53,703 nt of DNA, taken from positions 1 to 53,703 of the forward strand of contig WJIO01000153.1 of NCBI GenBank assembly GCA_014730235.1, read 5' to 3'. The notes below the pieces were generated by a model. That model did not search any database. It worked only from the letters and a program-made list of their open reading frames with translations, and was not told where the DNA came from. Each line of letters begins with the position of its first letter. The first letter of the stretch is position 1. The DNA is from Candidatus Poribacteria bacterium (lineage in GTDB: Bacteria; Poribacteria; DTPJ01; WJIO01). This document shows positions 35,658 to 48,645 of the stretch, piece after piece. Made by a program: the position numbers and the translations under genes.

Positions 35658-36989
35658 TTAATCCCTTTTATAAATCCAGTAAGAATTTCCCGGTTTCATA
35701 AAATACAGAATATCATGGTTAAAAGGTGGATATATTTTCCATTTCCCGGTTTTATTGTCAAAACCAAAAACATTAACATTACCTTCTGCTAAAACAGCTA
35801 AAACCTGTTCTACCGGTTGTATTAACGAAGAATTGTAACTTACTAAATTCCAGCCTGTATTTAAATTAGAAACCTCATTATAATATTGTCCTGCATCCAG
35901 AACCAGCATTCCATCCTCACGCATCTGTATACAGTAACTTTTACCCGGATCAATAGTGTTAATTCTATTGGGTATCAAGCGATCATCTGTATGGTAAGAA
36001 CTCCAAATACCTGTAAAAAAATTATATGACCAGATCGAAATGACTTTATCAATTATCGTTCCCAGAGCATCTTCAACATTACTTGGGTTGAGATATACTG
36101 GTGTAGAGAAGTAATTCCATCCCGCTTTAAGCTTTATGATCGGAAAAAAGAAGATATACGGTTCAACAGGTATATCTGCAACTTTTTGATCTTGTGCCAA
36201 AAATTTTGATTTGTTTCCATATAATACCTGAATAGTATAAGTATCATCATCCTGAGCTTCTGAACTGGGAATTACATTTATATTATAATTCCCCATAATT
36301 GCACTGGGAATAATTACTATATCATCTTCTTCTCCATCGTTATTCATATCCAGTTCTACATAGGTTGCCGCTGGTATTTCTGTAGAAGATTTATTAATCT
36401 GTTTGCCTTCCGGGTCAGTAACAACCAAATCCACAGGTGAGAGGGCTTTTATTAATAAGCCAGGAGTATTGTAAACTATCGTAACAGAACCATTGGAAGT
36501 ATGTGCGGGTACCTCTGTTAAGTTTGCTTTAAAAGATGCTTTTATAAAGTTGAATAACCCCATATCACCAAATTTGACTGTATCCCGAACTCTGAATCTC
36601 ACTTTAACCAGATGACCGGAACCTTCTAATGGAGATAAATTCAGCATATTTATAAGAAAATAATCTTCACCAAGTCCTGCAGCTATCATCCAATCAGAAG
36701 TTATTGTATCATCCCGAACAATAGCAGTATCAGTTTCTGGTGATTTCTCAGGATACACAAGTTCGGGGTCGAAGCCAACTTCCAACTCAATCAGATTAAT
36801 ACCCTGACCCGTTGCATCACTTATGCTAATAGGAAGTATAAATACTTCACCTGGCAAAGATTTAATATCTGGCATAGATACATCAATATCGGCTTTGGAA
36901 ATATCAGGAATCAGGAATATAAGAATTATTGATATAGAAAGATAAATGTAGATAAATGATGCATTAATCCCACAGGTTGTTTTCTTCAT
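35658..36989 (-). CDS. Exported protein with cohesin-like N-domain
   Basis: 443 residues; signal peptide at about 1-33 (SIILIFLIPDISKA). Residues 35-175 have the pattern of a cohesin / type-III carbohydrate-adhesion beta-sandwich: VSMPDIKSLPGEVFILPISI, then INLIELEVGFDPELV and GHLVKVRFRV. A middle beta domain includes the acidic loop ELDMNNDGEEDDIVI. The C-terminal part has two copies of a motif LKAGWNYFSTPVYL / LNTGWNLVSYNSSL, each followed by a W-rich strand and a PGKSYCIQ / PGNSYWIY end, similar to the GW-x-x-V-S repeats seen in proteins of deep-branching bacteria. Last gene of the envelope operon, 9 bases after the Pal-like gene. Probably surface or periplasmic; function unknown. Confidence 0.7.
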   Translation of the reverse strand: MKKTTCGINASFIYIYLSISIILIFLIPDISKADIDVSMPDIKSLPGEVFILPISISDATGQGINLIELEVGFDPELVYPEKSPETDTAIVRDDTITSDWMIAAGLGEDYFLINMLNLSPLEGSGHLVKVRFRVRDTVKFGDMGLFNFIKASFKANLTEVPAHTSNGSVTIVYNTPGLLIKALSPVDLVVTDPEGKQINKSSTEIPAATYVELDMNNDGEEDDIVIIPSAIMGNYNINVIPSSEAQDDDTYTIQVLYGNKSKFLAQDQKVADIPVEPYIFFFPIIKLKAGWNYFSTPVYLNPSNVEDALGTIIDKVISIWSYNFFTGIWSSYHTDDRLIPNRINTIDPGKSYCIQMREDGMLVLDAGQYYNEVSNLNTGWNLVSYNSSLIQPVEQVLAVLAEGNVNVFGFDNKTGKWKIYPPFNHDILYFMKPGNSYWIYKRD

Positions 36990-36998
36990 GATAAACCT

Positions 36999-38684
36999 TT
37001 AAGGGTCAAGTGCCTTTGTCAGAAAAACCACATCAACACGACGGTTTTGTCTACGCCCTTCTTCATTTATATTTGAAGCTATAGGACGGGTCTCACCATA
37101 GCCAACTGAGGATAAATTTTTCAAAGGTATATTCTCCTGGTCTACAAGATATCTAAGGAAATTATGGGCCCGCTCTGTGGATATTTTAAGATTTGATTCA
37201 TCAGAACCCTGGCTGTCTGTATGTCCCTCTATTATTAACTTGATTTGGGGATATTTCCTTAAAATATCGGCCAGAGATTTCATCCGGTCTTTAATATCTT
37301 CACGAATTCGACTGCTTCCCTGGGAAAATAAATTGCCGCCCATGCTTATGACAACACCTGCTTCTGTTCTGCGAATACTGGATTCAGGTATATTCTGAGC
37401 GTTCTGAATAATATCATTTTCAATTTCTGCTATCTTGCGATCCTGCTCATTTTTAGCCTCTACCATCTTAATAGCTGTTACGGCGTAGGCAGAACTTTCC
37501 CTTGAAATAGATACAGCTTTTTCAAAATCCTCTTGCTGAAGAGCTTTTCTTGCGTTATCCAGAGCTTCAAAAGCTTTGTAATAAATTTCCCCAGCCACTT
37601 CTTCAGCACCCTCTGATTGAGCCTGAGAAATATTTCTTTCTGCCTTTGCAATAGCATCAAGGGCATTGGCTCTAATATCTTCCAGAGCTTCCCGTTCACG
37701 GTTTTCCCTGTCCTTTTTCTGAGCTACAATAAGGTTACTGGATGCTGAAATTCTAGCTTCATCAGCCAGGGATTCAGCCCGGTCATATCTTTTAGCATCT
37801 AATGCAATTTTAGCTTCATTTATCAGCTTTTCAGCCTGTTGAAACATGCTGGAATTTTCATCAGCCAAAACCCCTTTTGCCTGTTCCAGGATCAGTTCTG
37901 CTTTTGTAATAGATGAAGCAGCCCTATCTCTGCCTCTCAGGGATTCCTCTGATTCAGCCTCTAATCTTGCCCGAGCCTGCACAACAGCGTTGGCGGCATT
38001 TCTGGAAGCCTCCATTGAAGCTTCCAAAGCCTTGTCAAAATTACCTTCGTCTAATTCTGATTTCGCAATATTCAGAGAGGCAACGGCAGCATCGTAAGGT
38101 TGTTGAGCATATCTGGATGCCTTAACTTCATCAGCCAATCTTATTTCCAGTTCTGCTTTGGATATTTCCAGTTCTGTTTTTGCATGCTGTATATCCTGTT
38201 CCGCTTTTTTCATAGCTTCCTGGGCTGATTTTTCGGCTAAACGGGCTTTTTCCTCAGCTATCTTTAGTTTCGTTTCGGCCAAAGCCAGTTCATCCCCACG
38301 CATGGCCCACATAATTTCAGAAATACCTCCCTGAGCTTCCATTATCCGACGTTCAGCCTTAATCTTACCAGCTATTGCTATTGAGATAAGGGCTTCCAGA
38401 TTGGCCATATAAGCCATCTCCATTGCCTTTTGATTATTACCTTTTCTAAGCACTTCCTGGGCAACTTCAACAAGGTTATTGGCTCTTTCCATCTGCTCAG
38501 GAGCGTATTCAGAAGCATTTTGTTCCTGAGCGATAGCAATGGAATTGCGCGCCTCTACTACCGAATTGCTTGCTGTACCTGCATCTACTTCCATTGCACC
38601 TCTTGTTGCGCATCCAGCTAAAACAAGAATAACAATTAGAAAGATAAAAATCCCGGATAAAGGGTATCTAAAATATGTAGCCAT
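36999..38684 (-). CDS. Pal/OmpA-like lipoprotein with long coiled coil (DUF4398-like)
   Basis: 561 residues. Lipobox LAGC (Cys near 25). Residues about 35-410 are almost entirely Ala/Glu-rich helices with DUF4398-like repeats (NSIAIAQEQNASEYAPEQME; pattern A-x-x-A-I-x-x-A). The C-terminal about 130 residues form an OmpA/Pal peptidoglycan-binding domain: GNLFSQGSSRIRED, LIIEGHTDSQGSDESNLKIS, SVGYGETRPIASN, GRRQNRRVDVVF, with the diaminopimelate-binding Asp and Arg in place. It should tether the outer membrane to the cell wall, with the long helix spanning extra distance. It lies in an operon with ExbB/TolQ- and TonB-like genes, as Pal does in tol-pal. Confidence 0.88.
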   Translation of the reverse strand: MATYFRYPLSGIFIFLIVILVLAGCATRGAMEVDAGTASNSVVEARNSIAIAQEQNASEYAPEQMERANNLVEVAQEVLRKGNNQKAMEMAYMANLEALISIAIAGKIKAERRIMEAQGGISEIMWAMRGDELALAETKLKIAEEKARLAEKSAQEAMKKAEQDIQHAKTELEISKAELEIRLADEVKASRYAQQPYDAAVASLNIAKSELDEGNFDKALEASMEASRNAANAVVQARARLEAESEESLRGRDRAASSITKAELILEQAKGVLADENSSMFQQAEKLINEAKIALDAKRYDRAESLADEARISASSNLIVAQKKDRENREREALEDIRANALDAIAKAERNISQAQSEGAEEVAGEIYYKAFEALDNARKALQQEDFEKAVSISRESSAYAVTAIKMVEAKNEQDRKIAEIENDIIQNAQNIPESSIRRTEAGVVISMGGNLFSQGSSRIREDIKDRMKSLADILRKYPQIKLIIEGHTDSQGSDESNLKISTERAHNFLRYLVDQENIPLKNLSSVGYGETRPIASNINEEGRRQNRRVDVVFLTKALDP

Positions 38685-38706
38685 AATGTCCCCTCTACAT
38701 ACATTA

Positions 38707-39129
38707 CTAATTTGTTTGATTTTTGTATTTTTTCAGTTCTTTTTCAGCTTCTATTAGTTCAGTATTTACTTTAGCCGCCTGAGTGGAAATATTTTGCAAT
38801 TCTTTTTCCATTTGGCTTGCTTCAGATTCAACTTTTCTCTGCTTTGCAATAGCTTCGGCAAGACGTGCTTGGGCTTCGGCCTGATGAAGAAGGAGCAATG
38901 CCTGATTGGTTTCACCCATTTGTAATTTCTTATTGGCGTTATCCCTGCTGCTTTTGGCATTCTGGAACTCCTGCTTGGCCAAAATTTCCGCATCAGCTTG
39001 TTTAGCTTTTGATATGCTGGCATCAACAGACTCTAACAGTGGTTCAATTAACTGCCCTTGACCACCGCAACCGACCAGAATCAAAAAACATAAAATCAGA
39101 ATCGTAGATGATGGAATCAGGAAAGACAT
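38707..39129 (-). CDS. DUF4398-like small helical lipoprotein
   Basis: The start is placed at ATG 39129, which has AGAGGTG upstream; a longer in-frame reading would overlap the preceding gene. 140 residues with lipobox LVGC (Cys near 21). The mature part is one long amphipathic helix/coiled coil (SISKAKQADAEILAKQEFQ; QAEAQARLAEAIAKQRKVES), the DUF4398 pattern. It resembles the helical segment of the Pal-like protein encoded 22 bases downstream, suggesting the two interact or arose by duplication. Confidence 0.75.
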   Translation of the reverse strand: MSFLIPSSTILILCFLILVGCGGQGQLIEPLLESVDASISKAKQADAEILAKQEFQNAKSSRDNANKKLQMGETNQALLLLHQAEAQARLAEAIAKQRKVESEASQMEKELQNISTQAAKVNTELIEAEKELKKYKNQTN

Positions 39130-39149
39130 AGACACCTCTGATAAACAGA

Positions 39150-39175
39150 AAGTGGTTGGATTTAACCAACCACTT
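39150..39175 (-). promoter_or_regulatory. Intercistronic hairpin
   Basis: AAGTGGTTGG (39150-39159) pairs with CCAACCACTT (39166-39175) across a 6-base loop, between the TPR lipoprotein and DUF4398 genes. The following minus-strand sequence (TCTGTTTATC) is a poor U tract, so partial termination or mRNA processing within the operon is more likely than a full stop. Confidence 0.5.
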
Positions 39176-39199
39176 CTAAGATATTGTTTGGATGAAGTT

Positions 39200-40435
39200 T
39201 TATGGATGTGCGTTGGGATCTGTATCTGAAGTTCCCGCAGTAGATTCCTCATAATACGGGTATCCATCCTGATCTTCATCGTATTCATATTGTCTTACCT
39301 TGAGTTCAGCAGCTTTATAAAGTTTGCCATCAGGATATGTATCCCGGTAAGTCTTGTAATATTCGTAGGCGTTTTCGTATTGTCTTAAACTTTCGTAACA
39401 AATAGCCATATTGTATATAGCTTCACCACGTCGAAAATCTGTTGGATGATACTTAATATAATTATTATAAGCATCCAAAGCTTCAAAGTATTGTCCCATT
39501 TCCAACTGGTAAGTTTCAGCTATACCAAATCTTGCCTGAGCTGCCTGACGAAGCATGAGAGGTACTCTATCAATCAACATTCGATATGCTTCTATGGCTT
39601 TTGGATAATTTTTCAACTGTCGCCATTTGGTTGCGACCGCCAGGAAAGACTGAGCGACCTGCTCCTGTTTAATTCCATATCTTTCATAACCAGTAATATT
39701 ACGTCCCTCAGGAACTTTTCGTTTCTGAGCTTCTCTTATAAAGGCGATGTGTTCACTTATTTCACCGCGAATTTTATTGGTTTCTCTAAGCAAGTCCTGA
39801 ACTTCACTCACACGGAATTTAAGATCAGGATAATTTTCTTCGTTTACTTTTTCAAATTCATTCCAACCAGCATCCAGATCATACAGCTTATAGAAATATA
39901 TATTACCAATATTAACCTGTGCCTGGGCAGCTTTTGGACTACCAGGGAACTCTTCGATTAACTGATTATAAACTTCTATTGCCCTATCATAGTTACCCAG
40001 TCTGTTATCATATATAGATCCAAGTTCCATAAGGGCATCAGCGGCTACATCAGTACCAGGATTGTTACTATGCAATATTCTAAGCCTTTCGATATCCCTT
40101 CTACTTTCTCTTATCTGAGATACCCTGTTTCTGGCTTCTGTACCCAGGTAGCTCATTTTAGGCTCAGAATCGGCAACTTCCTGGAAAATCGCCATAGCTT
40201 CATCGAATTTTCCCTGGAATTTGTATGATTCACCTATATAGAATTTGGCCCGGTTTGTATAATCTCCACCCTGGGCAACAATTTCCTGAAAAGTTACAAT
40301 AGCTTCTTCGTAGTTTCCTGCTTCAAATTCCTTTAAACCACTTTCAAAATCAATACCTTCTGTTGTACAGCTATTTAGTGCTATAACAACAAACAGCAGA
40401 GCTACACACAAAGTAGCAATATATATCTGCCTCAT
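39200..40435 (-). CDS. TPR lipoprotein (BamD/CpoB-like)
   Basis: The start at ATG 40435 is supported by GAGGAGGAA upstream and makes a proper lipoprotein signal with lipobox LNSC; a longer in-frame version lacks this. 411 residues. At least six TPR units of the periplasmic YbgF/BamD style are visible (FESGLKEFEAGNYEEAIVTF; ADALMELGSIYDNRLGNYDR; EAIYNMAICYESLRQYENAY). An acidic C-terminus (YDEDQDGYPYYEES, then DTDPNAHP) includes a possible Ca-type loop. In tol-pal operons a TPR protein (CpoB) accompanies TolQRA-Pal; here it sits in the equivalent position. Confidence 0.85.
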   Translation of the reverse strand: MRQIYIATLCVALLFVVIALNSCTTEGIDFESGLKEFEAGNYEEAIVTFQEIVAQGGDYTNRAKFYIGESYKFQGKFDEAMAIFQEVADSEPKMSYLGTEARNRVSQIRESRRDIERLRILHSNNPGTDVAADALMELGSIYDNRLGNYDRAIEVYNQLIEEFPGSPKAAQAQVNIGNIYFYKLYDLDAGWNEFEKVNEENYPDLKFRVSEVQDLLRETNKIRGEISEHIAFIREAQKRKVPEGRNITGYERYGIKQEQVAQSFLAVATKWRQLKNYPKAIEAYRMLIDRVPLMLRQAAQARFGIAETYQLEMGQYFEALDAYNNYIKYHPTDFRRGEAIYNMAICYESLRQYENAYEYYKTYRDTYPDGKLYKAAELKVRQYEYDEDQDGYPYYEESTAGTSDTDPNAHP

Positions 40436-40523
40436 TATAGTTCCTCCTCGGTTACCTTTATTGGCGGATTTGGTTTGATGTTTTAAACCCTTTAACGTCA
40501 AAACCAAAGTTTAAATTTTGGAG

Positions 40524-41777
40524 CTAATCTCCTATACTGGTTAGCTCAAAGTTTATGGGTATTTCACCATACTGCTCTTTTTGCTCATAGTTTTTGGGTA
40601 GTGCCTCAAATCTTATTTGCTCAACGTAATTACTTGCCAAAGTATCAAGTCTTGGGCTACCAGACTTTTTCACAACTTTAACGTTAGTTACATATCCGGC
40701 TGGATTAACCCAGAGCTTGATTATTGTAGTACCACCTTTACTGGCCTGGTATCCTTCGGGTAGTTTGGGCCAGAATACAACCTTCCTGCCAGCAATATCG
40801 CCGGTAATTTCGCCGGCAAAACTGGGTTTGGCTACTTCATCAGAAGGCCCGACTCGATCTTCAGGATAAGACACATCGCTTTCAACACGATTTGGCGGTC
40901 TTGCTATATTTGATCTGGGGCCATCTTTCACCTGCTGCTGAGTTCGTCCTATCTCAAGAACAGGTTTCTTTGTGCTATCCAAGGCCGAATCAACATTAAT
41001 AGCAGGGGCATTATCCTGGGGTTGAACCTCGCGTTCGCTGCGCGTGGCTGATCTCAACACCATATCACTGCCCTTGTCCGACACCCGGGCAAGGGTTTTG
41101 GGCAGTTGCGGCATAGAGTCCTCTATTTCACTTCCTGGGGCTGTGTCAGTTACGCTTTGTATCTCGATCTTGGGTAAAGTCGGTGCTTTTTCAGCAACAG
41201 TCTTATTCTGAGGTATAATCTCAGCCATTAAAGGTTGTTGTTCTTCTTCTATCTCTTCTATAGTTACAATAATTTCATTTTCTTCTGGCATTTCGGCTGT
41301 ATCTGCCGGCGCACCGTATATCAATATAGCAAGTATAGCTATAACAACAACATTTTCAGCGATAGCCAATATAAAGAAGGACGCCAATTCTTTTCTGGAT
41401 ATATAGGAAAATGCTCCAACTCCAGTAACGGTGCTGACAGCAGCATAGCCAATACTTATATTAAATCCCCAGAAACCAAGAACACCTATGACATTAACAG
41501 CAACTATTGCAGGACATACATATAATGCCAGAGCAGAAGCCCATACCTGTGATGTTACATAACCAATAGCACTGGTTACCCATAATGCACCTGCAATAAG
41601 CATTGCTAAACCAAATATAATTGATCCAACTTTAATTGTGGGAGTAAGGTGCATTGCTTCTGCCGTTGGTCTTGCACCCTCAACAACTGCCATTATACCA
41701 AGAACGACGTTAAGAACTCCCACAGCCAGAAGCACAATAACAATTATCCATTTTTTTCCTGATGATATTTCATTCAT
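40524..41777 (-). CDS. Polytopic TonB-family protein
   Basis: 417 residues. The first about 165 residues contain four to five membrane helices, instead of the single anchor of TonB/TolA. A Pro/Glu-rich linker (about 170-320) follows, then a TonB C-terminal domain (about 330-415: GGTTIIKLWVNPAGYVTNVK, SGSPRLDTLASNYVEQIRFEAL, INFEL). It sits 46 bases after the ExbB/TolQ-like gene. It would transduce proton-motive force to the outer membrane. The polytopic N-terminus may replace the missing ExbD/TolR partner; that is inference. Confidence 0.85.
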   Translation of the reverse strand: MNEISSGKKWIIVIVLLAVGVLNVVLGIMAVVEGARPTAEAMHLTPTIKVGSIIFGLAMLIAGALWVTSAIGYVTSQVWASALALYVCPAIVAVNVIGVLGFWGFNISIGYAAVSTVTGVGAFSYISRKELASFFILAIAENVVVIAILAILIYGAPADTAEMPEENEIIVTIEEIEEEQQPLMAEIIPQNKTVAEKAPTLPKIEIQSVTDTAPGSEIEDSMPQLPKTLARVSDKGSDMVLRSATRSEREVQPQDNAPAINVDSALDSTKKPVLEIGRTQQQVKDGPRSNIARPPNRVESDVSYPEDRVGPSDEVAKPSFAGEITGDIAGRKVVFWPKLPEGYQASKGGTTIIKLWVNPAGYVTNVKVVKKSGSPRLDTLASNYVEQIRFEALPKNYEQKEQYGEIPINFELTSIGD

Positions 41778-41823
41778 CTGTTAACACCACCTGTCATGTA
41801 CTGGACTTGACAGACCAAAAATA

Positions 41824-42507
41824 CTAATCCTCATCTTCGTCTTCGCCGCTCATTTCCGATTCCTGTGTTACCAGTCTGGATTCTCCTGTTGTAAAGAAGC
41901 GCACCAGGGAAAACGAATGACGTACCATTTCGTTTATCATACTATCTACTTTTGACATAAAATAAGCATAAGCTATCATAGCGGGAATTGCAACTGTCAG
42001 ACCGGCAGCAGTAGTCAAAAGTGCATAGGAAACTCCCCTTGCAACAGTAGTCGCTGTGTCAGGTCTGTCTGTTCTCCAAACAGCACCAAAAGAAATAAAC
42101 ATACCGGAAACTGTACCTAAAAGCCCGATAATAACAGCTATTCCACCGAGAAAAGACAGGGTTTTCAGATACTTCTGTAAACGGAGCTTTTCCAAATTTG
42201 CGGTTTGATTAATGACCGCCCATAAGTCCGGTTTTCTTAAGTACCTGTTTTTTATTGCGACTTTTATTATCTTTGTAAGAGGGCCCGGTCGTGAATCACA
42301 TAGAGAAAGGGCAAGGTCCAGCTTTCCTTTTTCAAGCACTCTATAGATCCTTGCGATGAAACGACGAGGCATGAGTTTTCTCCTGCGCAGATTATATAAA
42401 CGTTCAAGAATAATAGCATGGGAAAACAGAGAGCAAAAAAGTAGAGGTATAAGTAAAGGTCCACCATTGCCCAGTTGAGAAAATCCACCTGTTATAGCAT
42501 CAATCAT
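41824..42507 (-). CDS. MotA/TolQ/ExbB proton channel family protein
   Basis: 227 residues with three membrane helices: one N-terminal (GGPLLIPLLFCSLFSHAIIL) and two in the conserved C-terminal block (LKTLSFLGGIAVIIGLLGTV, then SYALLTTAAGLTVAIPAMIAYAYF). The family core GLLGTVSGMFISF and TTAAGLTVAIPA is intact. No Shine-Dalgarno sequence is visible before the ATG (TTTAAATAATT), which is unusual for this window. The acidic tail EMSGEDEDED is also atypical. No ExbD/TolR gene is adjacent. Confidence 0.93.
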   Translation of the reverse strand: MIDAITGGFSQLGNGGPLLIPLLFCSLFSHAIILERLYNLRRRKLMPRRFIARIYRVLEKGKLDLALSLCDSRPGPLTKIIKVAIKNRYLRKPDLWAVINQTANLEKLRLQKYLKTLSFLGGIAVIIGLLGTVSGMFISFGAVWRTDRPDTATTVARGVSYALLTTAAGLTVAIPAMIAYAYFMSKVDSMINEMVRHSFSLVRFFTTGESRLVTQESEMSGEDEDED

Positions 42508-42579
42508 AATTATTTAAACATATTCAATGTAAAATACAAGTTGTTTTAAATTCAAACTGTGCATTTAATTTATTGTTTT

Positions 42580-42685
42580 GGTTCTTCCAACTTGAGTGTG
42601 GAAATAAAAAAATTTTTCTAATTAAGAAAAAATCTCATCTTTTTGTCATTCCTGCTTTTGCAGGAATGACAGGCTAGGGTTCTAG
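42580..42685. repeat. MITE-like copy, right half replaced
   Basis: Left end GGTTCTTCCAACTTGAGTGTGG and core hairpin GTCATTCCTG-CTTTTG-CAGGAATGAC (42645-42670) are clear. The expected right terminal repeat is missing; instead a different palindrome begins at 42686. It sits between the ExbB-like and beta-barrel genes. Confidence 0.7.
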
Positions 42686-42721
42686 GCTTGTAGGAACACG
42701 GCATGCCGTGTTCCTACAAGC
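42686..42721. repeat. 36-bp perfect palindrome with GGCATGCC centre
   Basis: GCTTGTAGGAACACGGCA and its exact reverse complement abut with no spacer. No T run follows on either strand. It looks like a REP-type dispersed repeat; no second copy is seen in this window. Confidence 0.6.
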
Positions 42722-42784
42722 GCATAAATAATATGTCTTTTAAAAAGTGCGAAAGTATAGTCTTTAGAGATTCTATTTATATAG

Positions 42785-44524
42785 TTAAAATTTCAAAACT
42801 AAACCCAAATCAATCATCCAATCTGGCAATCCGTATTCTTTCCAGATTTGATATTTATCCTCTCCAAAATAAAATTGGCTTGAAGCAAAGACCTTCGCAT
42901 ATTTTCCAAAGCTTTTTGATATACCCGGTTTCACAAGGAAATAGCCAGGAAGTGTTTCTTCGCCATTCAATTCTGTATATCTTATTCCCCAGAATTCACC
43001 ATCAACAGAAAACTCCAGACCCAGCGGGGCTTCATAGGTAAAGCCAAGAAGGCCTTTATTATTTGGTCTGTATGGAATATTAATGTCGTTTTCCTGCTGG
43101 TGAAATTCTTGTATATATTCAACGTTATGTTTTAAACGATCTCCAAATGCTGAACCTTCCCATCCTGCTTTAAAACCATATATGCGAGAACTTTCCAGAG
43201 AAATAGGCTTCCAGGATAAGGTATCATCCTGAATATTTTCAAATATTACCAGGTCATCAACTTCACGATCAAAAGCTTCGGCAGTTATTGCGAATTTTCT
43301 TGTTATTCTATACTGCAAAGATGCTTTTATATCCCAGGATCTTTCCAGACTTAAAGATGGATTTAATCGCATATAATTATTCTGGATATATAAATCTCTA
43401 AGGTTCTGTCTAATGACATTTCTTTCAACACCAAATTTAAGTATAGCATTTCTACCTAGTCTCGATGTAAATATAAGATTTGGATTCAGATATATATCCG
43501 GTTCCCATCCTTCACCATTTTCAGAACCTTTACGGGCATCAAATAATAAATTCAATTCAGCGCTTAAGACAAATATCAGGAATCTTATATACTGGTCACG
43601 AACATATAGCTTTACTGTTGCTTCCTGTGCTTCTTCGTTTTCATTTTCTCCATCAAGATATGATATGTCTCCGCCCATTTCAATGGGATTGGATTTAGAT
43701 AGTAACGCGCTAAATCCTAATCCTGCCTTGATATCCAACGCACCATGAGAATCAGATGTAACGGGTTCGGTCATTTGAAGGTTTGTAATATCCAAATTAA
43801 TAGATGCGTCAAAATTATCTGAAAGTTTTTGATCCAGATCCAGATACGCGTTTGCTATTGACCTATCGTTCTCATAATTTGCACCAGTATTGCTTAAATA
43901 AGCCATATCTTTGGCTTTATAATTCACATCGACTTTCAGATTTGTATTCTCAGTCTGATATGTAATAGCTCCCCGCAGTTTATCAATATTAAATTCTTCC
44001 AGATTATTATTTTCATTACTGACCATCTCTGGTGTTCTTTCTTTTCTTAAAGATGTTCTACCAGCTTCAACTAATGCCTCTGCATTGCCAAATCCCCTGA
44101 AGAATAGCATCTGGTATGATAAAACTACAGGAACACCCGAATAAGCCTTAATAGAAACCAGGAAATCCCGCTCTGATTCCTCTTTAGTATCACTCAGTTT
44201 TCCCGGAAGAGATGTAGGGGGAAGATACCAGGGACGCTCTTTTCGTTTCAATGGAGTATATATTCTGGAATCAGGCTTAGTAAAGCTGTGAAATTTCTCC
44301 TTTGGAATTTTAAGCTGGGTGGTATCCAGAATTTCTATATTAACAGTCGGAAGATCCATTATTTTGTCTTCATCGTCTTCGTCTTCCTTTATTTCCTCCT
44401 GGCTGTATGAATTTGCTAGAGCGAGAGTCAGGAAACCAACAAATAAGATACAAAACAATAAATATACAAATATTTTGTGGCTTGTTTTGGATCTCAGGTT
44501 TTGGGGCCTATCTCTCACCCGCAT
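42785..44524 (-). CDS. Outer-membrane beta-barrel protein (TonB-dependent-receptor-like)
   Basis: About 579 residues. The start is uncertain: ATG 44524 lies directly after AGGAGGTG, and GTG 44518 has better spacing. Signal peptide IFVYLLFCILFVGFLTLALA ends near residue 45 of the longest reading. After an acidic segment (KEDEDDEDK) come about 20 amphipathic beta strands (for example FNIDKLRGAITYQTENTNLK; NLKVDVNYKAKDMAYL) and a C-terminal aromatic residue (LVLKF), the insertion signal of outer-membrane barrels. The late strands resemble TonB-dependent receptors, but no plug domain or clear TonB box is seen. Overlap with the upstream giant TPR gene suggests coupling. Confidence 0.72.
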   Translation of the reverse strand: MRVRDRPQNLRSKTSHKIFVYLLFCILFVGFLTLALANSYSQEEIKEDEDDEDKIMDLPTVNIEILDTTQLKIPKEKFHSFTKPDSRIYTPLKRKERPWYLPPTSLPGKLSDTKEESERDFLVSIKAYSGVPVVLSYQMLFFRGFGNAEALVEAGRTSLRKERTPEMVSNENNNLEEFNIDKLRGAITYQTENTNLKVDVNYKAKDMAYLSNTGANYENDRSIANAYLDLDQKLSDNFDASINLDITNLQMTEPVTSDSHGALDIKAGLGFSALLSKSNPIEMGGDISYLDGENENEEAQEATVKLYVRDQYIRFLIFVLSAELNLLFDARKGSENGEGWEPDIYLNPNLIFTSRLGRNAILKFGVERNVIRQNLRDLYIQNNYMRLNPSLSLERSWDIKASLQYRITRKFAITAEAFDREVDDLVIFENIQDDTLSWKPISLESSRIYGFKAGWEGSAFGDRLKHNVEYIQEFHQQENDINIPYRPNNKGLLGFTYEAPLGLEFSVDGEFWGIRYTELNGEETLPGYFLVKPGISKSFGKYAKVFASSQFYFGEDKYQIWKEYGLPDWMIDLGLVLKF

Positions 44525-47500
44525 CACCTCCTGGAGCAGTCTCAAGAGCCTCTATTTTCTCCAACTGTTTACGGGCAAAATCTATGGCTGTATCCCAATC
44601 CGGCTTTTTCTTGTCGTAGTATTCACCACCTGGATTAGCATAATCTTTAATTATCTTGCGATACCAGATAGCTGCGTCGCTCCATCTTCCCAGTCTTTCA
44701 TAACTGTATCCGGCTCTTGAAAGAGCGTATATTCCCAGGTCAGGATCAAAATATACAAGAGAAACCCTGAGATAAGCCTCAGCCGCTTCCTCGTATTGGC
44801 CCATTTCATATAGACCTTCAGCCTTGTATAATTGGGCAGAGGCTTCAATTTCTTTGCTATAAGTTCCGGGATTTTTCAGTATAACATCAAAAGCTTCCAC
44901 TGCCTCTTTATATCTACCCATCTCATGCAAAACTCTACCCAGTAGCAATTGAGCATTTGGTGAATCCTCACTCTCTGGATAATTTTTCAAAAGTCTCCTG
45001 TAAGCTTCTTCAGCATCCTGCCATTTAAGTAAATCCTGGTTTGCCTGACCTATAGCAAAAAGCGCCCTGGGTGCTTCTACGCTATTAGGATAAGATTTCA
45101 CCACATTTTCATATGCATTTATGGATTTTTGCAGATCACGCTCCGGGTTATTCTTATCATACCAGCATTGCCCTATTTCATAAGCAGATTTTGAAGCTGA
45201 AGATGAGTTAGGGTATGACGCAACAGTCTTTTCAAAAGCACTTATGGCCTGAGAATATGAGCCAAGTTGCTTGTAACTTATTCCAATATTATACTGAGCC
45301 CGGGAAGCTGATGAGCTTTTGGGATATGTATTAATAACAGCTTGGTATTCAGCAATAGCTTGAGCATAATTATTTCTGTCATAGTTATAATTACCTAATT
45401 CCATCTGAACAATAGGTGAATATTCGCTTTGTGGATATATCCTGAGCAACATTCGATAAGCAGTCAGCGCTTCCCTGCTGTTGCCTGCCTGTTCATAGGC
45501 CTGGGCGATAGAGTATTGAGCATCATCAGAAAGGTCATGGGTAGGATAATTATCAATAAGTTGCTGATAAGATTTGATAGCGGTGATATAATCAGAAAGG
45601 TTATAATATGCATCAGCTATTTTAAACATGGCTTCGGGTCTGAGATCGCTGTTTTTATAATCTCTTGTAATACGTTCATATTGAGATATAGCTTCTTCAT
45701 ATTTATTCATCTCAAAATACGAGTCACCCATCAGAGCCAAAGCTTTATCCACAAGTTCAGTACCTTTATTATTTTCAATTAAAGCTTTTGCCGTTTGTAT
45801 AGCTTCCTGATAGTCCTTTTGTTTGTATCTGCACCATGCTATCCAGTATTGAGAATCATCAACTAAATTGCTCTGAGGATAAAGAGTAATAACAACCCGG
45901 AAAGCCTCAATCGCAGAGGAATAATTGTTGATATTAATAAATGCGTAACCAATGTAATATTGGGCTTTTCCGCTGACGCTGCTGCCCTTATAATCGGATG
46001 TAACCTCCTGCCAGGAATTTATTGCCTGGTTGTAAAGAGAATTCCTTGATCTGGTATTTTCTGTTGATCTGGCCTGGTCGAAATAAGTTAACCCTATGCC
46101 ATATTGGCTCTGATCATTCCATTCACCATCAGGATTGTTATTTATCAGGTCGGTGTATTCTTTCCGTGCATCGGCGTATTTATTTTGCGAGTATAAAGAT
46201 TCGGCAATATAAAATCTGGCTTTATATACAAATTCACTGTCGGGATATTGCTGTTGAAATTTTCTAGCAGCGTTTATTGCATCTTCATAGCGATCCAGTT
46301 CAAATAATGAAACTATTTTCCAGTATAATGCGGCATCGGATTGGGCACTGGTCATATCCGTATTCGGATATTCCTGAAGGAATCTGTCAACAGCGCTAAC
46401 GGTTTCGTTATATTTGTTAATCTGGAAATACGAGGTAGCTATTCTGAAAAGAGCCTGAGGTTTAAATTCAGTTTTAGGGAACTTCGTCAAAAGCAAATCG
46501 AAAGCGTCTATTGCTTCCTGATATTGCTTTAGCTCAAGATAAGCCAGCGCGCTCCAATATGCCGCCCTGTCGCCATATTCTGAAGCGACGTTTACCCTGG
46601 AGAATTCCAGCAAAGCCGAATTATAATCCTGCTGTTGGAAGCGACACTGACCCATATGGAATCTGGTAGCATCCTCCCATTCTGTATCACGATATGTCAG
46701 CACCAGCTTGAATTCTTTATAAGCTTTGGAGTATTCCTCCTCCATAAGATACGTGTAAGCTATGCTGTACCTGGCATCATCAGCAACACGGCTGGTAGGA
46801 TAAATCTCAATAACTTTGCCATATTCATATTTTGCTTCAGCATATTTCTTTTGAGCATATAATACCTCAGCTATACCATATTGAGCTTCTGCGGCTCCAT
46901 CTTTAAATTCAGGATAATCATGCAAATATTTATCAAAACTTTGTCTTGCTTTATCCAGGTTACCCAATTCGGTATAAGCTTGACCCATTTTAAGAAGTGC
47001 ATCGGCGGCTATTTTCCGGGAATCGCTGTATTTATCCAGAATCATCTGGTAAACAGAAACAGCTTCTTCCCATTTTTTCAAAGCAAAAAGGCTTTCACCG
47101 GCTAAATATGCCGAATCTGGAGCTCTTTTGCTTTCAGGAAACTGCTCAACCAGCTTAATGAAAGATTGATATGATGCCTGATAACGTCGAAGATTATATA
47201 GAGACCAGGCCTTCGAATATATTGTAGTCTCTGTCTCTTTAGCTTCGGGATATTTAACCAAAAGCTGGTCATAATATTCTATGGCTTCTTCGTATCTAGC
47301 GAGATTATATAAAGCCTCACCTACCTGGTAAAGGACAAAAGACTCAATTTCCGGATCCTCTATTTGCCCGATAATATCTTTATAGGCTTGTATAGCCTCT
47401 TCGTATCTGCCTTGTTGATACCATGAATCAGCTATTCCCCGAAGGGCGTCTATCCTCAATTCACTGCCAGGATAATCGTTTAATAAAAGTTTATATTCCT

Positions 47501-47771
47501 CAACAGCCTTTGAATATTCCCCTTCATAATAAAAGCAATAGCCTATAAAAAGACGGGCATCATCAGCTTTATCGCTTTTGGGATATGTTTCAATGAATTT
47601 CTCAAACTGCTCACGAGCCATCTTGTAAGCCCGTTCCTGGAAAAGATTATAGGCAAAAGCATAATCCCTCGCTTCATCGGCATTGGAATTTGAAACAATG
47701 CAAAAAGCCAACGCTATCATAAGAACAAGTGTGGAAATGTAACGTATATCCATATTTAGCAGATACCTCAC
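44508..47771 (-). CDS. Giant exported TPR protein
   Basis: 1087 residues. GTG 47771 has GAGAGG 8 bases upstream; ATG 47753, six codons later, is an alternative. Signal peptide STLVLMIALAFCIVSNSNA. The rest is about 28 tandem periplasmic-type TPR units of about 35-37 residues (AQYNIGISYKQLGSYSQAIS; AxxxIGxxYxxxxxYxxAIxxYxxxxxxYP), closest in style to YbgF/BamD. One stretch (ARSTENTRSRNSLYNQ) interrupts the array. It would form a long superhelical scaffold in the periplasm. A good sigma-70 promoter precedes it, and its stop overlaps the beta-barrel gene, so the two are probably co-expressed. Confidence 0.9.
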   Translation of the reverse strand: MRYLLNMDIRYISTLVLMIALAFCIVSNSNADEARDYAFAYNLFQERAYKMAREQFEKFIETYPKSDKADDARLFIGYCFYYEGEYSKAVEEYKLLLNDYPGSELRIDALRGIADSWYQQGRYEEAIQAYKDIIGQIEDPEIESFVLYQVGEALYNLARYEEAIEYYDQLLVKYPEAKETETTIYSKAWSLYNLRRYQASYQSFIKLVEQFPESKRAPDSAYLAGESLFALKKWEEAVSVYQMILDKYSDSRKIAADALLKMGQAYTELGNLDKARQSFDKYLHDYPEFKDGAAEAQYGIAEVLYAQKKYAEAKYEYGKVIEIYPTSRVADDARYSIAYTYLMEEEYSKAYKEFKLVLTYRDTEWEDATRFHMGQCRFQQQDYNSALLEFSRVNVASEYGDRAAYWSALAYLELKQYQEAIDAFDLLLTKFPKTEFKPQALFRIATSYFQINKYNETVSAVDRFLQEYPNTDMTSAQSDAALYWKIVSLFELDRYEDAINAARKFQQQYPDSEFVYKARFYIAESLYSQNKYADARKEYTDLINNNPDGEWNDQSQYGIGLTYFDQARSTENTRSRNSLYNQAINSWQEVTSDYKGSSVSGKAQYYIGYAFININNYSSAIEAFRVVITLYPQSNLVDDSQYWIAWCRYKQKDYQEAIQTAKALIENNKGTELVDKALALMGDSYFEMNKYEEAISQYERITRDYKNSDLRPEAMFKIADAYYNLSDYITAIKSYQQLIDNYPTHDLSDDAQYSIAQAYEQAGNSREALTAYRMLLRIYPQSEYSPIVQMELGNYNYDRNNYAQAIAEYQAVINTYPKSSSASRAQYNIGISYKQLGSYSQAISAFEKTVASYPNSSSASKSAYEIGQCWYDKNNPERDLQKSINAYENVVKSYPNSVEAPRALFAIGQANQDLLKWQDAEEAYRRLLKNYPESEDSPNAQLLLGRVLHEMGRYKEAVEAFDVILKNPGTYSKEIEASAQLYKAEGLYEMGQYEEAAEAYLRVSLVYFDPDLGIYALSRAGYSYERLGRWSDAAIWYRKIIKDYANPGGEYYDKKKPDWDTAIDFARKQLEKIEALETAPGGDAGER

Positions 47772-47811
47772 TGTTCATACCTCTCTTTGCTCTAAATCAA
47801 AGTTAATTGCT

Positions 47812-47841
47812 ATTATAACATTCAGAGGGTGTGATTTTCAA
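47812..47841 (-). promoter_or_regulatory. Sigma-70 promoter (extended -10) of the giant TPR gene
   Basis: Minus strand TTGAAA (47841-47836), 18-base spacer, TATAAT (47817-47812) preceded by TG-T. Start near 47805, about 34 bases before the GTG at 47771. Confidence 0.65.
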
Positions 47842-47979: not shown

Positions 47980-48645
47980 TTAGTAATTACCATTATCCAG
48001 AAGTAAAAAAGGAATTGTACGTAGAACGATCTTGAAATAAAGCTTTATTGATCTGTTTTTTATGTAATCTATATCGTATTTTACTATACTCTCAAATTCC
48101 AGATTAGATCCGCCGTTAACTTGGGCTAAACCGGTTATTCCGGGTTTTATTTTAAGCCTCTGTTTATGATAATCTGAATAAAGCTCATATTCTGATAAAA
48201 TAGGTGCTCTGGGACCTACTAGACTCATATCACCTTTTATTACATTAATAAGCTGAGGAAGTTCATCAAGACCCAAGGGCCTTATGTATTTCCCTATTCT
48301 GGTGATCCGAGTGTCATTTTTCATTTTTACTACAGGCTCAACAGAACCATCGCTGTTTTTCCTGTATTTTTGAGTCATCTTATCAGCATTTTGACACATA
48401 CTGCGAAATTTATACATCCTGAAACATTTACCATTTTCTCCAATACGCTTTCCCTTGAAGAAAACCTCTCCAGGTGACTCCATTTTAATGAGTGCAGCCA
48501 GAAATGTAAACATAGGAGTTAATGCAATAAGTCCTAAAACAGAAAATACAATGTCACTTAGTCTTATAACGTAATCATCAAAAGACCGATTTTTGCCAGT
48601 AGATGAATCAATTGATGAACCGATACCGGCAGTATAATCTGCCAT
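47980..48645 (-). CDS. Initiating sugar-phosphate transferase (PglC/WbaP C-domain type)
   Basis: 221 residues of the bacterial sugar transferase family (PF02397). One N-terminal re-entrant/TM helix (IVFSVLGLIALTPMFTFLAA), FFKGKRIGENGK and FRMYKFRSM motif, the catalytic Asp-Glu in LGLDELPQLINVIKGDMSLV, then GPRA and KPGITGLAQVNGG. It transfers a sugar-1-phosphate to undecaprenyl phosphate to start a surface glycan. It lacks the long multi-TM N-domain of WbaP. GGAGGT ribosome site. No glycosyltransferase genes adjoin it, so it may act with clusters elsewhere. Confidence 0.92.
   Translation of the reverse strand: MADYTAGIGSSIDSSTGKNRSFDDYVIRLSDIVFSVLGLIALTPMFTFLAALIKMESPGEVFFKGKRIGENGKCFRMYKFRSMCQNADKMTQKYRKNSDGSVEPVVKMKNDTRITRIGKYIRPLGLDELPQLINVIKGDMSLVGPRAPILSEYELYSDYHKQRLKIKPGITGLAQVNGGSNLEFESIVKYDIDYIKNRSIKLYFKIVLRTIPFLLLDNGNY

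Follow-up and report, generated by a model that had tools for sequence, protein, structure and literature searches.

A conserved poribacterial operon pairs ExbB with TonB without an adjoining ExbD and may encode a derived Ton-type motor

Known motors of the ExbB/TolQ/MotA family are described as a pentamer that surrounds a dimeric axle of ExbD, TolR or MotB. In the GldLM and AglRQS-Glt motors of motility and secretion, a channel of the ExbB/TolQ family drives periplasmic and outer-membrane parts, an arrangement that the gene module described here would share; those motors use GldM or ExbD-like partners, and no such partner was seen in the module operon. With the Ton system the module has in common an ExbB channel with pore threonines, a TonB with a TonB_C domain and an anchor helix, the motif of which is altered, and an outer-membrane barrel of the transporter fold. 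It differs from that system in having no ExbD in cis, in changed residues at the TonB-ExbB contact and in the pore, in a barrel that is predicted to lack a plug, and in carrying a giant TPR protein and a TPR lipoprotein inside the operon. Since both the ExbD in cis and the plug are missing, we treat the module as a variant of the Ton system, the one that it would most resemble in its working, and not as an ordinary member. A limited literature search, which is no proof that none exists, found no description of ExbD-less ExbB-TonB pairs or of plug-less natural transporters.

The window that we analyzed is a whole 53.7-kb contig (C74) from a 5.53-Mb draft genome of Candidatus Poribacteria in 451 contigs. 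Positions 35658-47753 hold eight genes in one operon, all on the minus strand, and both the Pfam and NCBIfam domain assignments and an AlphaFold2 model of the barrel agree with the gene set that the first-pass annotation had read there from the letters. The first gene (44508-47753) encodes a giant TPR protein of about 1081-1087 aa with a signal peptide and 21 stretches that match PF13174, and its orthologue is gene 1 in 19 loci. It is followed by genes for an outer-membrane beta-barrel (42785-44524), an ExbB/TolQ-like channel protein (41824-42507; PF01618, MotA_ExbB, 6e-24) and a TonB with an N-terminus of roughly five helices (40524-41777; PF03544, TonB_C, 1e-11). Downstream lie a TPR lipoprotein with YbgF/BamD-like repeats (39200-40435; lipobox LNSC; TIGR02795 at 1.7e-24, just under its cut-off) and two accessory lipoproteins, one with a DUF4398 match just under the cut-off (38707-39129) and one that joins DUF4398 (PF14346, 1.3e-15) to a C-terminal OmpA/Pal domain (36999-38684; PF00691, 1.2e-18). 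The last gene (35658-36989) encodes an exported protein with a cohesin-like domain (PF00963, 1.9e-7) that is probably outside the module. On the same strand, upstream of the giant TPR gene, we find a bacterial sugar transferase (47980-48645; PF02397) with no counterpart seen there in relatives.

We compared every ORF in neighbourhoods from relatives with the window proteins. The first-pass annotation had inferred a trans-envelope machine that contains an ExbB-like channel and a TonB but lacks ExbD, and the genes indeed stay together in relatives and do not scatter: the order giant TPR-barrel-ExbB-TonB is intact in 19 loci (the window included) from nine families of the phylum, which is more than chance. 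Two further loci start within the module at a contig edge, and one of these two has an ORF inserted between ExbB and TonB. The insertion, in genome G040 (L153, 2632-3432), is a 266-aa ORF beginning PSPFPGMDPYLEHP. In most of the module loci the gene after TonB encodes a TPR lipoprotein, the DUF4398 and Pal-like genes adjoin the core in the window, G001 and G016 (three families) and are nearby in G004, and no orthologue of the cohesin-like gene was found at the other module loci compared. The conserved core comprises the giant TPR protein, the barrel, ExbB, TonB and usually the TPR lipoprotein; the Pal-like, DUF4398 and cohesin-like genes are outside it. A survey of 84 genomes of the phylum finds a module-type ExbB in 24 of the 26 that do not belong to family f3; the 58 f3 genomes lack it. 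Nearly all genomes have another ExbB besides.

This core is not that of a Tol-Pal-like system, with which the locus had first been compared. The module does share with Tol-Pal a TolQ/ExbB-like channel, a YbgF/CpoB-like TPR protein and, in some lineages, an OmpA-domain lipoprotein. It differs from Tol-Pal in lacking TolR, in the TonB_C domain, in having in its core a barrel, of the type found in TonB-dependent transporters, and in that Pal is not conserved in the core; the OmpA-domain lipoprotein itself scores under the Pal equivalog cut-off. A search for TolB (TolB_N, PF04052) found nothing in the window's genome and nothing in 83 of the 84 genomes of the survey, with one weak match. Since TolB is absent and Pal lies outside the core, we conclude that the module is not Tol-Pal.

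The absence of ExbD/TolR and TolB from the operon, as the first-pass annotation had it, is confirmed by profile searches. No ExbD/TolR family gene was found in the window operon, and an ExbD profile searched against all ORFs at every module locus gave no match; at the other poribacterial ExbB locus, it does detect ExbD genes, arranged in tandem. We also considered a small hidden ExbD in the gap between barrel and ExbB (42508-42784) and rejected it, as the only ORFs besides the genes are shorter than 35 aa, apart from one of 112 aa that runs antisense within the gene for the barrel. Translations of part of this gap (42560-42700) read FVIPAFAGMTG / ACHSCKSRNDKK, typical of REP-like intergenic repeats. 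Among the best 80 relatives of the window ExbB from a set of 84,980 species, 74 have an ExbD at most 4 kb away, and the six that do not are four poribacterial module copies, one locus at a contig edge and one lone ExbB.

ExbD genes do occur elsewhere in these genomes. The window's genome has two, one beside another ExbB (C239) and one at a contig start (C95), the partner of which probably lies in an assembly gap. It also holds, in addition to the ExbB-ExbD pair on C239, TonB genes, one of them beside a TonB-dependent receptor (C256), and six receptor barrels, so that the genome has an ordinary Ton system in addition to the module. Nor does an ExbD from outside the operon lie close by in G035, a relative assembled as one contig: it carries the module at 2.427 Mb and its two ExbD genes at about 0.672 Mb beside a different ExbB of their own, which puts ~1.75 Mb between the module and the nearest ExbD. 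At the ordinary poribacterial ExbB locus there are two tandem ExbD genes, in most cases with a large exported protein encoded upstream (L159 7449-8341, L161 7483-8354, L162 4353-5212, L163 578-1464). The main rival to a motor that runs without ExbD is that the module borrows ExbD in trans from such a separate ExbB-ExbD-ExbD locus, in which case it would be an ordinary 5:2 Ton motor with one scattered gene. We consider this rather unlikely. It is favoured by the survey, where every genome but one incomplete genome has ExbD, mostly as a tandem pair. However, at least two ExbD genes are present equally in the 58 module-less f3 genomes, so that the second copy does not owe its presence to the module.

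The membrane helices of the module ExbBs bear further on this question. The nearest named relatives of the window ExbB are Candidatus Poribacteria, and in a quick tree all module ExbBs form one ExbD-less clade with support of 99. We aligned them with 83 comparison ExbBs, 81 of which have an ExbD seen nearby, and number positions by an E. coli ExbB sequence that we take from general knowledge and checked at the positions named. A histidine in TM1 at the Trp38 position (His30 in the window, codon 42418-42420, minus strand) is present in all 19 module ExbBs outside family f4 versus 0/83 comparison ExbBs, and it is absent from f4. Proline at the Pro141 position is lost from all of those 19 (Val125 in the window, codon 42133-42135, minus strand) and kept in 5/5 f4 and 83/83 comparison proteins, and the two residues that follow have changed from Leu-Leu to mostly Tyr-Thr. 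The equivalents of Ser34, Thr148, Thr181 and Pro190 are kept in 19/19. We discarded Asn196 and Arg200, which contact ExbD in E. coli, as markers of ExbD loss, given that they are variable also in ExbD-partnered proteins. An ExbD supplied in trans would agree with the retained pore threonines, and it fits f4 well, where the ExbBs keep all canonical features tested. It leaves unexplained why a residue kept by every comparison ExbB should be lost only in the module protein, and no comparison ExbB has a pore helix like that of the module, not even the poribacterial ExbBs that adjoin those very ExbDs.

In E. coli, TonB Ser16 and His20 contact ExbB Ser34 and Trp38, and conserved ExbB prolines, located where the pore borders on the cavity, introduce kinks into the pore helices (PMC12215075). 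The anchor helix of the window TonB (41322-41390, minus strand) carries a glutamate, Glu141 (codon 41355-41357), directly before the position of TonB His20, and this glutamate is present in 19/19 module TonBs outside f4. The motif of the module helix is A/S/V-x2-E-H, with E-N in the window, where the residue after the glutamate is Asn and not His. The glutamate is absent from all nine TonB-type S-x3-H helices that we found right after ExbD in other phyla (two further motif matches after ExbD are ABC transporters and were left out), and poribacterial TonBs from outside the module, where their anchor helix can be recognised, likewise read S-x3-H with no acid.

It had been suggested that a polytopic TonB merges the roles of motor and transducer. 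Transmembrane plots and alignment do give the window TonB about four helices upstream of its anchor helix. These occur only in the window and in G001, where the gene order is the same; in the other families the TonB of this ExbD-less pair has a single helix, or two in f4. The extra helices are a local addition, and we reject them as a substitute for ExbD. Closest to the earlier idea, by way of the anchor helix and not of the extra helices, is a model in which the anchor helix enters the ExbB pore, its Glu replaces the Asp of ExbD and TonB serves as axle and transducer at once. This model is in our estimation quite unlikely. It would account for a conserved acid in the sole membrane helix common to all non-f4 partners and for a pore helix that is remodelled around a retained ring of threonines. 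However, the Glu co-occurs with the His on the TM1 face of ExbB, the side on which TonB normally docks (PMC12215075), and a Glu paired with that His is placed outside the pore.

We propose instead that the module encodes a derived Ton-type motor that would have no dedicated ExbD and in which a buried pair of Glu and His would couple TonB to ExbB anew, a reading for and against which we find the case to be almost evenly balanced. In this proposal, ExbB would be the usual inner-membrane channel, and the glutamate of TonB would pair with the TM1 histidine of ExbB within the known TonB-ExbB contact site. The pair could make docking itself proton-sensitive, so that ExbD would no longer be needed, and the remodelled pore helix, with its proline lost and Leu-Leu mostly replaced by Tyr-Thr, would fit docking free of ExbD. 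TonB, docked directly on ExbB, would carry force across the periplasm to the plug-less barrel, and the giant TPR solenoid and the TPR lipoprotein would make up the periplasmic part, which would close the barrel or guide it. What we observe are the linked genes and the patterns of their residues; the docking geometry, the use of protons and the substrate are inferred. A further idea, tentative and in our judgement somewhat doubtful, is an ion-driven motor of the ExbB family made of two proteins, in which TonB alone supplies the protonatable membrane helix, with no axle of ExbD/TolR/MotB type, and drives a plug-less barrel of transporter type gated by the TPR solenoid. There are hints against an ExbD-free motor: the threonine ring, which serves the Asp of ExbD in known motors, is kept, and an acid-bearing helix may still enter the pore. 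The Asn that takes the place of His after the Glu of the window TonB also counts against the proposed pair.

Family f4 also speaks against the ExbD-free reading. Among the f4 genomes G041, G045, G043, G042 and G003 (L154-L158), those with complete loci carry a two-helix TonB without the Glu, and three others have a lone module-type ExbB that neither TonB nor ExbD adjoins. The f4 operon is ExbD-less and has none of the three changes, so that the loss of ExbD in cis does not always go with the changes. Moreover, the module ExbBs form one clade, and the changes may thus be a single evolutionary event; if, as is probable, they arose together on one branch, their co-distribution does not represent many independent events. 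A lineage that keeps the ExbB-TonB pair, has dropped the axle gene from the operon and has changed residues known to link TonB to ExbB would make the roles of axle and transducer separable for testing, and it could reveal how a motor of this kind operates on a smaller set of parts.

The barrel is the second respect in which the module departs from the Ton system. An AlphaFold2 model built with 18 orthologues has 22 barrel strands at a mean pLDDT of 80, and its residues 1-88 are unordered. The best 50 PDB matches to the model are all TonB-dependent transporters, with most alignments covering the barrel part only; the best is FhuA (Z 23.1, 3.0 A, 426 residues), aligned from its residue 157 on and hence without its plug. 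PF00593 matches 6 of the 18 orthologues (best 1.8e-14), and the window's barrel itself has no Pfam match. TonB-dependent transporters share the 22-strand barrel and differ in their N-terminal plug (PF07715), for which the 18 orthologues gave no match at E-values up to 1. Given the absence of a Plug match and an unordered N-terminal segment that is too short for a plug, the barrel is, as modelled, of the TonB-dependent-transporter fold without a plug. Its periplasmic N-terminal extension of ~75 aa is conserved among orthologues. A plug-less transporter barrel in such an operon raises the question of what TonB pulls on. That the giant TPR protein and the barrel form the outer part, as first suggested, is a plausible inference, and the TPR protein may gate the barrel.

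The operon might also be a passive tether between the membranes, in which ExbB is a docking scaffold for TonB and no motor, and to which the Pal-like and TPR lipoproteins contribute in some lineages. The lack of ExbD in cis and the loss of the pore proline agree with such a tether, as does the OmpA-domain lipoprotein that adjoins the core in three families and lies near it in a fourth locus. However, we regard it as very unlikely: neither the pore threonines nor the second pore proline vary, which is what continued passage of ions would lead one to expect, and the C-terminal domain of TonB and a barrel of transporter type point to the transfer of force.

A derived Ton-type motor may have its origin in operons of other phyla. 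In Spirochaetes, Omnitrophota, Auribacterota and others (L108, L046, L113, L055), operons with the genes TPR-(barrel?)-ExbB-ExbD-TonB show the same order of TPR, ExbB and TonB as the module and differ from it in the ExbD between ExbB and TonB and in TonB helices of S-x3-H type without the Glu. The module may be derived from TPR-ExbB-ExbD-TonB operons like those in Omnitrophota, Auribacterota and Spirochaetes. In the place of the barrel, the spirochaete locus L108 has an exported protein of ~550 aa; we do not claim homology between the two, as a profile comparison of the poribacterial barrel with the spirochaete protein at the same gene position was not significant. Two spirochaete operons (L108 1839-5529 and L074 2350-7609) encode a TPR protein, an exported protein of ~550-570 aa and ExbB, followed in L108 by ExbD and TonB, and may be ExbD-containing cousins of the module.
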